A stretch of DNA of 37,207 nt. Origin: Candidatus Kaiserbacteria bacterium (GTDB taxonomy: Bacteria > Patescibacteriota > Minisyncoccia > Phycocordibacterales > UBA2100). The stretch is from positions 1 to 37,207 of the forward strand of contig VGJQ01000011.1 of the NCBI GenBank assembly GCA_016867375.1, in the 5' to 3' direction. Shown one piece after another: positions 8,075-34,119 of this stretch (the first letter of the stretch is position 1; every line of letters begins with the position of its first letter). The notes below the pieces were generated by a model. It searched no databases, was not told where the DNA came from, and saw only the letters and a list, made by a program, of their open reading frames with translations. The position numbers and the translations under genes are program-made.

Positions 8075-8219
8075 TTAGGTCCCGTTCATAAGGCTCACTT
8101 CTGCATACATGACTTTTGGTCATGTATGCAAGTGTGCACTTATAATTCAACACCAAATGAACGGGCCCATAAGTGTAGTCCACAAATAACGGGTACGTTA
8201 ATTTGTGGACGAGCCCTTA
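8075..8219 (-). repeat. MITE-like element, long form (145 bp)
   Basis: Runs from TTAGGTCCCGTTCAT to the complement of TAAGGGCTCGTCCAC. It holds three internal stem-loops: GCATACATGAC/GTCATGTATGC, the ATGAACGGG hairpin and GTCCACAAAT/ATTTGTGGAC. The ROK gene reads into the right end, so its last residues (KGSSTN) are encoded by the element. Confidence 0.85.
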
Positions 8220-12018: not shown

Positions 12019-12025
12019 GCTGCTA

Positions 12026-12031
12026 ATTATA
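12026..12031 (-). promoter_or_regulatory. -10 box of the GH15 gene
   Basis: A consensus TATAAT on the minus strand ends 7 nt before the ATG at 12018, predicting a leaderless message. Confidence 0.5.
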
Positions 12032-12065
12032 GCCTGAGGAGATAGGTGTTTTTGAGTTTGTACAC

Positions 12066-12100
12066 ACAAAAATTCGGGACCCACCTTTCGATGAGTCCCG
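12066..12100 (-). terminator. Rho-independent terminator of the small membrane protein gene
   Basis: On the minus strand CGGGACTCA pairs with TGGGTCCCG (one G-T pair), followed by AATTTTTGTG. It separates the gene at 12125-12337 from the GH15 gene. Confidence 0.75.
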
Positions 12101-12124
12101 CACAATGTGTTGTAGGAATAGTTA

Positions 12125-12337
12125 TCAGGTTCCCATGAGCCAGAAACTGACAGAGACAATCGCGCAGATCATGAGGACCAAGGCAACCAACGACCTCCAT
12201 GTAAACCGCCGGAAATCTTCCTCCATTTCCTTTTTGCGAATCTGGTACAGATGTTCGCCGATATCGTATCTAGGGGAATCTCCGGGACCCGGACCCTCCA
12301 CCGGACCGTAACATATTTCTGGCAGTTTGATGCCCAT
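12125..12337 (-). CDS. Small single-pass membrane protein (70 aa)
   Basis: GGAGGA lies about 7 nt before the ATG at 12337, which defines the start within a longer open frame. The product has a proline/glycine-rich N-terminus (GPVEGPGPGDSPRYD), a charged amphipathic segment (LYQIRKKEMEEDFRRFTWR) and a C-terminal membrane helix (SLVALVLMICAIVSVSFWLM). It has its own promoter (TTGAGT, 17 nt, TACACT) and terminator. I recognise no family. Confidence 0.65.
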   Translation of the reverse strand: MGIKLPEICYGPVEGPGPGDSPRYDIGEHLYQIRKKEMEEDFRRFTWRSLVALVLMICAIVSVSFWLMGT

Positions 12338-12380
12338 TTGGCTTCCTCCAATTCGTCGTGAACATCCACGAACTGAAAAA

Positions 12381-12409
12381 AGTGTACCACGCCATCTCCG
12401 AAAACTCAA
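12381..12409 (-). promoter_or_regulatory. Promoter of the 70-aa membrane protein, touching a CTATAG palindrome
   Basis: TTGAGT (12409-12404) and TACACT (12386-12381) are separated by 17 nt, with TG before the -10. The -35 begins at the first base of the palindrome at 12409-12448, so a protein bound there could block this promoter. Confidence 0.6.
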
Positions 12410-12448
12410 TATTCCAAATCTCACGCTATAGCCTATCATTTGGAATAT
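12409..12448. repeat. CTATAG palindrome 1, overlapping the PaaX/Cas2-like start codon
   Basis: Arms ATATTCCAAAT (12409-12419) and ATTTGGAATAT (12438-12448) are perfect complements, and GCTATAGC (12425-12432) sits exactly on the centre of symmetry. The ATG at 12447 lies in the right arm. Confidence 0.85.
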
Positions 12449-13031
12449 GGGGTCTATGGAATCAGTATCGGGGAAAAGGCGGCGAAACAGCCGTATCCAA
12501 CAGTCAGTATTGGCGATCATTGGCACCGCAGGATTACTTACGGTCGCCATGCTCGCTCCGAATATATTTCAGGCCTTTCCTCGCATTATCGGAAAGAAGC
12601 GATACAAGCTCGCCTTCCAGGCGCGCACTGCCGTACAACGGCTCGTGATCAAGGGTCACGTGCAATGGGTAGCGCAAAACGGCAAAAAATACCTAGAGAT
12701 TACTGAGAGCGGTCGCCGCGCCCTCGATCTCTTCATGGCACGTACGACCGCCCCCGCCCGCAAGAAACAGCAGTGGGATCGACGATATCGCATGGTCATC
12801 TTCGACATCCCTGAACGCCGTCGCGCCGTGCGCGAACGACTACGCATGCTCATGAACGAGTTTGGCTTCCTGCGTCTGCAAGACAGCATCTGGATCTCTC
12901 CTTATGACTGCGAGGAACTCGTCGCACTCGTCAAAGCGGAACTCAAGGTGGGCAAAGATATTCTCTATGTGATCGCTGATTCGATTGAGAACGATGTATG
13001 GATCAGGAAACACTTCAATCTCCCAAGGTAA
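12447..13031 (+). CDS. PaaX-like protein with a Cas2-like domain
   Basis: The 194-residue protein has two parts. Residues about 15-100 resemble a winged-helix region (RTAVQRLVIKGHVQWV, KKYLEITESGRRALDLF) with a hydrophobic stretch, SVLAIIGTAGLLTVAMLAP. Residues about 110-190 (WDRRYRMVIFDIPERRRAV, RMLMNEFGFLRLQDSIWIS, DILYVIADS) match the Cas2-like ferredoxin-fold domain of PaaX regulators. Such proteins in CPR genomes are often annotated as Cas2, but no CRISPR array or other cas gene is present. One palindrome overlaps the start codon and two more follow the gene at 13105 and 13180, so the gene is framed by one repeat family. A start at 12456 is also possible. Confidence 0.8.
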   Translation: MGSMESVSGKRRRNSRIQQSVLAIIGTAGLLTVAMLAPNIFQAFPRIIGKKRYKLAFQARTAVQRLVIKGHVQWVAQNGKKYLEITESGRRALDLFMARTTAPARKKQQWDRRYRMVIFDIPERRRAVRERLRMLMNEFGFLRLQDSIWISPYDCEELVALVKAELKVGKDILYVIADSIENDVWIRKHFNLPR

Positions 13032-13104
13032 CCCGCCCGCGCGCCACTTCTTTCTCCCCCTCCCTCATCTTCTTTTTGGATTTACCTAAGTAACTCTCAC
13101 CAGA

Positions 13105-13144
13105 ATATTCGATTTCTATGGCTATAGCCTACTATTGTGAATAT
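13105..13144. repeat. CTATAG palindrome 2
   Basis: Outer arms ATATTC (13105-13110) and GAATAT (13139-13144) are centred exactly on GCTATAGC (13121-13128). Inner arms are diverged. Total span is 40 bp, the same as copy 1. Confidence 0.7.
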
Positions 13145-13179
13145 CTGTGATCTGAGGTGGGCAAAAGGTTGGGACCGAA

Positions 13180-13215
13180 ATTCCTTTTTCATGGCTATAG
13201 CGCGAAATTTGGAAT
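13180..13215. repeat. CTATAG palindrome 3
   Basis: ATTCC (13180-13184) and GGAAT (13211-13215) are centred on GCTATAGC (13194-13201). A diverged copy, 53 nt after copy 2. Confidence 0.65.
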
Positions 13216-13242
13216 CTTTTGGTTGTTCGAATTGGACATGGA

Positions 13243-13261
13243 GTCGAGGTCAGACCTCGAC
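13243..13261 (+). repeat. REP palindrome (RAYT family)
   Basis: GTCGAGGTC-A-GACCTCGAC, perfect 9-bp arms. It is the only copy far from the RAYT gene. The rest of 13032-13325 has no gene; besides this and the two CTATAG palindromes it holds a degenerate TAAGGGCTCATC repeat end at 13305-13316. Confidence 0.9.
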
Positions 13262-13325
13262 AGAACGGATGTGGAGTGAGATTATCCCGGGGTACCGAGC
13301 TGGGTAAGGGCTCATCTTCCGAGCA

Positions 13326-14596: not shown

Positions 14597-14638
14597 AATA
14601 TTCTTATGTATACCCTATAGGATGCAGATAAGAATATT
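14597..14638. repeat. CTATAG palindrome 4 (variant core CCTATAGG)
   Basis: Perfect 11-bp arms AATATTCTTAT (14597-14607) and ATAAGAATATT (14628-14638), centred exactly on CCTATAGG (14614-14621). It directly abuts the next MITE-like element. Confidence 0.75.
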
Positions 14639-14688
14639 AGGTCCCGTTCATACAATAAGGCTCTCTTCTATTTGTGGACGGGCCCTTA
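14637..14688 (-). repeat. MITE-like element, short form (52 bp)
   Basis: TTAGGTCCCGTTCAT at one end, TAAGGGCCCGTCCAC at the other. The final TTA (14686-14688) is the stop codon of the glycosyltransferase gene. Confidence 0.8.
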
Positions 14689-19764: not shown

Positions 19765-19804
19765 CATATGCTATCTCCACGCTATAGCGCCAAGATAGCA
19801 TATG
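19765..19804. repeat. CTATAG palindrome 5
   Basis: Perfect 12-bp arms CATATGCTATCT (19765-19776) and AGATAGCATATG (19793-19804), centred on GCTATAGC (19781-19788). The arm sequence differs from the other copies, but pairing and the 40-bp span are kept. It lies 43 nt upstream of the -10 of the FAD oxidase gene. Confidence 0.85.
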
Positions 19805-24582: not shown

Positions 24583-24648
24583 CAAAATGAACGGGCCCAT
24601 ACGTGTAGTCCACACATAACGGGTACGTTATGTGTGGACGAGCCCTTA
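24583..24648 (-). repeat. MITE-like element, one end missing (66 bp)
   Basis: Contains ATGAACGGGCCCAT and the GTCCACACATAACG/CGTTATGTGTGGAC stem-loop and ends in the complement of TAAGGGCTCGTCCAC. The TTAGGTCCCG end is absent. TTA at 24646-24648 is the stop codon of the SET gene. Confidence 0.8.
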
Positions 24649-28995: not shown

Positions 28996-29069
28996 TTAAA
29001 ATCTTGAGTATGTCAGGTACAAGGCTGCGTTCAAGGCTGCGTGAGGCAAGACTTCGTGCATATCTGTAG

Positions 29070-29103
29070 GCTGACAAAAATCCCAATTGGGAAAATTGTC
29101 AGC
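29070..29103. repeat. 34-bp palindrome GCTGACAA...TTGTCAGC
   Basis: GCTGACAA (29070-29077) and TTGTCAGC (29096-29103) share a centre with TCCCAATTGGGA (29081-29092). There is no T-run, so it is not a clear terminator. Confidence 0.7.
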
Positions 29104-29293
29104 TTAGGGTTCGTTCATACATATGGCTCACTTCTGCACAAATGACTTTTTAGTCATTTGTGCAAGTGTGCACTTAGCTATATGGCGCCCACACGCATTT
29201 AGGTCCCGTTCATAAATAGGTTCAACACCAAATGAACGGGCCCATAAGTGTAGTCCACAAATAACGGGTACGTTATTTGTGGACGAGCCCTTA
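29104..29293 (-). repeat. Two MITE-like elements in tandem (190 bp)
   Basis: One TTAGG-type end at 29104 (TTAGGGTTCGTTCAT) and a second at 29199 (TTAGGTCCCGTTCAT) share one TAAGGGCTCGTCCAC end at 29279-29293. The first has the GCACAAATGAC/GTCATTTGTGC stem-loop seen in the 145-bp copy. This looks like an insertion next to, or into, an older copy. The final TTA is the stop codon of the next gene. Confidence 0.8.
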
Positions 29294-29690: not shown

Positions 29691-29728
29691 TATTCCCTAT
29701 TTGACGCTATAGCGTCAAATAGGGAATA
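29691..29728. repeat. CTATAG palindrome 6 (perfect)
   Basis: A 38-bp perfect palindrome, TATTCCCTATTTGAC plus GCTATAGC plus its complement, with no mismatch. Confidence 0.9.
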
Positions 29729-29777: not shown

Positions 29778-29796
29778 GTGCCCTTGGCAGGAATCG
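29778..29796 (-). repeat. Duplicate of the 3' end of tRNA-Arg
   Basis: GTGCCCTTGGCAGGAATCG is identical to 29952-29970, the 3' end of the tRNA-Arg gene. The two copies are 174 bp apart and enclose GC-rich DNA with a GCCCTGCGC/GCGCAGGGC hairpin. No integrase or other gene lies between them. Confidence 0.75.
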
Positions 29797-29952
29797 GTCA
29801 GGCGTTCGCCCTGCGCCGTCGCGCAGGGCGCCGCACGACCCTGGCTCGCGGCCTCGCGTGCTCGCTCGACATCGCTGCGCCTTTCGATTCCTGCTCGCAC
29901 AGTACGAAGGTACTATGCTCTCGGGCACAAAACCTCGCTTCGCTCACTTTTG

Positions 29953-30024
29953 TGCCCTTGGCAGGAATCGAACCCACATCTTTCCCTTAGGACGGGACTG
30001 CTCTATCCATTGAGCTACAAGGGC
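29953..30024 (-). tRNA. tRNA-Arg (CCT)
   Basis: 72-nt cloverleaf: acceptor GCCCTTG/CAAGGGC, D arm GCTC-AATGGATA-GAGC, anticodon loop GTCCTAA (anticodon CCT) and T arm GTGGG-TTCGATT-CCTGC with two wobble pairs. CCA is not encoded. The top anticodon pair is G-A. ACTGTA at 30044-30049 gives a minus-strand TACAGT -10 (with TGA before it). Confidence 0.9.
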
Positions 30025-30180: not shown

Positions 30181-30275
30181 TTAGGTCCCGTTCATACATA
30201 AGTTCAACGCAAAATGAACGGGCTCATAAGTGTAGTCCACACATAACGAGTACGTTATGTGTGGACGAGCCCTTA
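30181..30275 (-). repeat. MITE-like element, complete 95-bp form
   Basis: TTAGGTCCCGTTCAT to the complement of TAAGGGCTCGTCCAC, with hairpins ATGAACGGG and GTCCACACATAACG/CGTTATGTGTGGAC. Nearly identical to 34025-34119. TTA at 30273-30275 is the stop codon of the kinase gene. Confidence 0.9.
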
Positions 30276-32987: not shown

Positions 32988-33027
32988 ATATTCCCTATTT
33001 TATGCTATAGCGTAAAATAGGGAATAT
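32988..33027. repeat. CTATAG palindrome 7
   Basis: 40-bp palindrome with ATATTCCCTATTTTA and its complement around GCTATAGC (33004-33011); one mismatched pair next to the core. Arms resemble copy 6 but differ in compensatory positions. Confidence 0.9.
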
Positions 33028-34026: not shown

Positions 34027-34119
34027 AGGGCTCGTCCACACATAACGTACTCGTTATGTGTGGACTACACTTATGGGCCCGTTCATTTTGTGTTGCAGTT
34101 ATTTATGAACGGGACCTAA
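34025..34119 (+). repeat. MITE-like element, complete 95-bp form
   Basis: TAAGGGCTCGTCCAC at the left end, ATGAACGGGACCTAA at the right. Stem-loops GTCCACACATAACG/CGTTATGTGTGGAC and CCCGTTCAT/ATGAACGGG. It matches the element at 30181-30275 in reverse orientation with only a few differences. Confidence 0.9.

Follow-up and report, generated by a model that had tools for sequence, protein, structure and literature searches.

Gene-specific palindromes frame PaaX/Cas2-like genes of Patescibacteria: a possible self-spreading system, REP-like and apparently undescribed, on an unrelated protein

Why should one PaaX/Cas2-like gene in a Kaiserbacteria genome lie among palindromes that recur, around the same six central bases, elsewhere in the same stretch of DNA? 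The gene belongs to a stretch of 37,207 nucleotides (the window), contig C11 of a genome from the Patescibacteria, a large group of very small, uncultured bacteria. For this stretch an earlier note had listed seven palindromes and proposed the PaaX/Cas2-like protein as their partner. All seven are present where they had been placed, each with CTATAG exactly on its centre of symmetry (Table 1). The hexamer occurs nine times in the window as opposed to 3.7 expected, a count reached by 1 of 100 shuffles, and palindrome centres account for seven of these nine occurrences. Three of the palindromes do surround the gene, as had been claimed, those at 13105 and 13180 being degenerate. The 5' palindrome had been said to overlap both the start codon and the -35 element of a divergent gene; the former holds for the first ATG (12447), while for the latter the scan finds no minus-strand promoter-like site. 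The conserved N-terminus of the protein family (MExx) starts at 12456, not at that first ATG. The two 3' palindromes are also found downstream of an 82% identical gene in the sister genome G032, with the same layout.

Table 1. Features of the window that bear on the PaaX/Cas2-like gene and its palindromes (arm complementarity counted over 20-nt arms).
Feature	Position	Strand	Remarks
Insert between GH15-like and GH57-like genes	12019..13325	.	spacing of those genes ≤75 bp in 7 of the 11 relatives that have the two
5' palindrome, centre CTATAG, overlapping first ATG of gene	12409..12448	.	16/20 arm bases complementary
PaaX/Cas2-like protein P0001, 194 aa	12447..13031	+	winged helix ~3-108, Cas2-like domain 110-194
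Segment spanning both 3' palindromes	13084..13227	.	gene-less copies on contig C18 (88%) and, partial, on C13 (86%)
First 3' palindrome, degenerate	13105..13144	.	12/20 arm bases
Second 3' palindrome, degenerate	13180..13215	.	12/20 arm bases
Solitary palindrome, CTATAG family	14597..14638	.	16/20 arm bases
Palindrome, CTATAG centre, deviating outer arms (CATATGC)	19765..19804	.	17/20 arm bases
Solitary palindrome, second family (gene on C9)	29067..29106	.	36/36 identical to palindrome beside C9 gene
Solitary palindrome, near perfect	29691..29728	.	19/20 arm bases
Solitary palindrome, near perfect, convergent genes on both sides	32988..33027	.	19/20 arm bases

The proposal that one gene is the partner of all seven copies does not survive in full. 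In the copy at 19765 the outer arms read CATATGC instead of ATATTCC, and the same arms recur in a sister copy on contig C16; these differences make it probable that this palindrome belongs to another family, with another partner gene. A gene-flanking palindrome in genome G041 has similar arms. The same intergenic region carries palindromes of two different families in two sister species (L115:11920 in G032, window 19765 in G000). A reading of the 19765 copy as a conserved divergent-promoter site was rejected, since in most relatives the FAD-oxidase gene is not preceded by a palindrome. A further palindrome, absent from the earlier note, lies at 29067 (GGCTGACA...TCCCAATTGGGA...); its gene is another PaaX-like one, on contig C9. 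The palindrome at 14597 sits in a gap of 163 bp that corresponds to one of ~20 bp in G032.

What kind of protein do these palindromes accompany? P0001 matches PaaX_M (E 3e-18) and the NCBIfam Cas2 model TIGR01573 (E 1e-6, 29 bits against a cut-off of 24.5); it remains under the cut-off of Pfam Cas2 (17.2 against 23.8) and does not reach that of the NCBIfam PaaX equivalog (36 bits against 264.55). Among 70 aligned relatives, PaaX_M is matched by all and Cas2 by 53. The predicted structure (mean pLDDT 77, at least 85 in the Cas2-like half) joins a MarR/PadR-like winged helix to a Cas2-like domain; over the full length it matches the structure of E. coli PaaX best, and neither a transposase nor a recombinase is among the best matches listed, which does not in itself rule out such a function. 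The HUH motif (His-hydrophobic-His) occurs in 0 of 70 members, in which Pfam finds PaaX_M and not Transposase_17, the domain peculiar to the RAYT family. Such a fold fits PaaX, PadR and MarR regulators, and a serious rival has to be weighed throughout, namely that the gene encodes a self-regulating PaaX-type repressor, with the 5' palindrome as an operator over the start and the 3' copy serving DNA looping, the solitary copies being regulon or decoy sites and the gene moving by ordinary horizontal transfer. We regard this reading as possible, if somewhat doubtful. Against it stands Asp120 of the Cas2-like domain: all 70 members have it, whereas neither of the two aligned solved PaaX-like chains has an Asp at this position.

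The genome holds five PaaX/Cas2-like genes, four of which clearly have their own adjoining palindromes and further copies elsewhere. The four paralogues are only 24–42% identical to the window gene, so that no recent duplication is involved. In the genome contig collection, 546 relatives of the protein were retrieved with an alignment as query and none with the single protein; none was found in the viral contig collection, so that collection gives no sign of phage carriage. Across the phylum, 40 of 145 genomes have a member at E 1e-15; within the window's own taxonomic family 40 of 70 do, with 0 to 14 copies per genome. No neighbour or partner gene recurs among 80 loci.

The palindromes, on the other hand, do recur, although their sequence changes from gene to gene: most homologues carry one just 5' of the start and one just 3' of the stop. 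At the 80 named loci, palindromes with a score of at least 10, lying within 150 bp of a gene's start or stop, were found at 68% (5') and 81% (3'), as opposed to 6% of 580 control stretches taken from the same loci. In the family set, at a score of at least 11, the figures are 48/71 (5') and 51/71 (3') loci against 22/399 controls, and among 20 distant members of the phylum they are 14 (5') and 15 (3') against 4/78. The framing that had been noticed around one gene thereby extends to the whole PaaX/Cas2-like family, and it does so with matched pairs: out of 7 outer positions, 0.5 are unlike between the 5' and 3' palindromes of the same gene and 4.4 between those of different genes (permutation p = 5e-5, the floor of the test). 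A repressor would fit the nearly fixed distance at which the 5' palindrome is often found, usually centred 17–27 bp before the start; the matched palindrome that most genes also carry behind the stop speaks against one.

The presence of the window's own palindrome, too, follows the gene. Its pattern, CTATAG-centred, has palindromic matches in 3 of the 70 family genomes (G000, G018 and G032), bracketing a close homologue in all three, and no such match in any of the 30 genomes that lack PaaX-like genes. Near-perfect palindromes of any sequence number 14–21 per 100 kb in four genomes with such genes and 3.5–9 in three without, a density difference to which other palindrome families add. It is unlikely, to our mind, that some other, unseen enzyme acts on the palindromes, with the PaaX-like genes as passengers settling in or beside them. 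Other palindrome and hairpin repeats, commonly found in these genomes, do lack a PaaX partner, and some solitary copies are embedded in larger repeats, as passengers would allow; yet a passenger would share its palindromes with other genes, whereas here every gene comes with a matching pair of its own, and this pairing is phylum-wide.

How might such a site be read? When arm mismatches are sorted by distance from the centre, positions 4–9 are mismatched in 18–39% of cases and positions 0–3 and 10–17 in 0–6%, with G-T and A-C mismatches equally frequent (22/26 and 28/26). With the centre and the outer arms spared, and without a bias towards G-T, the pattern suggests duplex DNA read by a dimer, as opposed to a strand-specific hairpin. 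The long self-complementary arms would, of course, also suit hairpins specific to one strand that function in single-stranded DNA or in RNA, in the manner of a true REP or a terminator, but the parity of G-T and A-C argues, if only indirectly, against this, as does the scan, in which no terminator-like sites were found at the window gene; the terminator reading was rejected on the latter ground, and we consider hairpins of either kind very improbable. Duplex binding by a dimer, which the bipartite arms and the lack of strand bias fit, would also suit a repressor.

The dispersed copies bear on the choice between a regulator and a mobile unit. TTC-N11-CTATAG-N11-GAA has 15 exact matches in the 1.0 Mb genome and its reversed control has 0. 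Counting those beside the gene, this genome has 15 sites of the window gene's family and 19 of that of the C9 gene; the C1 gene has 10 and one C5 gene 4, numbers that derive from pattern searches and sampled stretches of the genome. Some dispersed copies on different contigs have flanks in common: three C1-family copies are alike over ~110 bp. In the C9 family, the copies of contigs C12 and C16 have the left flank and the palindrome in common and diverge exactly at the palindrome's outer edge. Of the solitary copies, 26 were classified: 10 have convergent neighbours (19% expected, p 0.016) and four divergent ones, with no enrichment at promoters, which is evidence against a simple regulon. Nor were any solitary sites in common with sister genome G032 found among those compared. 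For a repressor, then, the excess between convergent genes as opposed to divergent promoters, the identical spacers in copies at many loci, and the want of a site in common with the sister species are all unfavourable.

Solitary copies also show an excess of internal symmetry (p 7e-5) that gene-flanking palindromes lack. This excess may reflect several gene specificities that were not sampled and is therefore not taken as proof of hairpin copying. In G052 and G053, which have many PaaX-like genes, only 1 of 62 solitary palindromes matches a sampled gene, 14 matches credited to gene L017 having been left out as a separate two-hairpin repeat near that gene.

Other repeats accompany these families. 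Several abundant near-perfect palindrome families in G053 and G052 (L165–L181; for example ATTCTAACGTTTTG/CAAAACGTTAGAAT) have no partner among the sampled PaaX-like genes. A two-hairpin repeat of ~95–110 bp (GGTCCCGTTCAT...GTCCACAnATAACG) gives 33–37 motif matches in 437 kb of the present genome and none in samples of six related genomes; its copies, mostly 90–97% identical and often adjoining PaaX palindromes, lie in the window at 8078–8191, 14640–14685, 24608–24639, 29202–29284, 30184–30266 and 34034–34116. The palindrome repeat GAGGTCWGACCTC (window 4742, 4767, 5377, 5549, 6030 and 13246) is matched 11 times in the sample of this genome and never in those of related genomes. Rfam finds three tRNAs in the window and nothing else; one tRNA gene has its 3' end repeated ~175 bp away (29778–29800 and 29953–30024), as attachment-site duplication would leave it.

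Have the gene and its palindromes been inserted as a unit? Here the GH57–GH15 spacing is 1307 bp, and it is 2148 bp in G032, with a PaaX gene between in both. The C1 gene lies within 990 bp that correspond to 57 bp in G032 and to 51–169 bp in nine other relatives, and one C5 gene lies within 1979 bp against 233 bp in G032, such that three PaaX-like genes have empty counterparts in relatives. Neither exact element ends nor a target duplication were found at these inserts, which exceed palindrome-gene-palindrome and whose relatives are too diverged between genes. The nearest orthologues retain the same genomic place, as a repressor gene would, and jumps must therefore be rare; to judge from these comparisons, cassettes have been gained but seldom move.

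What is observed here, then, is gene-specific pairing, phylum-wide framing, insertions with empty counterparts, and dispersed copies. The reading that we prefer would make the gene and its flanking palindromes one cassette. A dimer of the protein would recognise the palindrome flanking its own gene, in duplex form, reading the outer arms and the central 6–8 bp and leaving the stretch between less constrained. The unit of gene plus palindromes would be inserted into intergenic DNA, and from there it would leave solitary palindromes by some cut-and-copy step, as RAYT genes relate to REPs. We infer that the protein binds its own palindrome, and the spread of the palindromes would be its doing; it would have to cut or join DNA, possibly by way of the invariant Asp120. 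That a palindrome-gene-palindrome cassette is inserted and spreads its own palindromes seems to us evenly balanced between true and false; the inserts larger than the cassette, the dissimilar paralogues, the constant place of the closest orthologues and the scarcity of cognate solitary copies in G052 and G053 count against it. The wider proposition, of phylum-wide self-spreading elements in which a winged-helix Cas2-like mobility protein acts on duplex palindromes, a REP-like arrangement of an origin independent of HUH transposases, we advance only tentatively.

How does this arrangement compare with systems already known? As in PaaX repressors, PaaX_M (Cas2-like) follows a winged helix, and the resemblance in profile and fold is that described above; the members are, however, shorter, have no detected C-terminal PaaX domain and an invariant Asp120, and their palindromes flank the gene at either end and are dispersed besides. 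With Cas2 the protein has in common the HMM match, the fold and an Asp that closes the first strand, but here the domain is fused to a winged helix and flanked by its own palindromes instead of a CRISPR array. If the wider proposition is true, this would be a second natural link of Cas2-type proteins to palindromic repeats besides CRISPR, and a lead on the abilities of the Cas2 fold outside it. IS200/IS605 elements are likewise small, with one gene and palindromic ends, but there is no Y1/HUH transposase here and the palindromes fit duplex recognition. A search of open-licence papers found none on PaaX together with the Candidate Phyla Radiation, nor on Kaiserbacteria together with palindromes. 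On the preferred reading, Patescibacteria genes with matches to PaaX or Cas2 models, of which there are hundreds, would be elements of a single gene, each with its own target site that can be read from the sequence. Such pairs of protein and site would be a rare resource for learning DNA recognition.

The nearest working model is RAYT/REP, although membership fails on the HUH motif. RAYT genes have two flanking REPs that coevolve with the gene, and they keep their position in orthologues (PMC2817692). The comparison drawn in the earlier note thus holds for anatomy, a gene between two cognate palindromes, and, on the tests applied, not for homology, since the domains here are others: a winged helix plus a Cas2-like domain, with no strand asymmetry in the sites and 4–19 copies as opposed to tens to hundreds of REPs. 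A single gene between its own palindromes, gene-palindrome coevolution, dispersed copies and orthologues that stay in place are features of both (PMC2817692). Rare jumps count against mobility, yet RAYTs behave alike (PMC2817692), and the present genes would offer a new comparison for the coevolution of palindromic repeats and their proteins.
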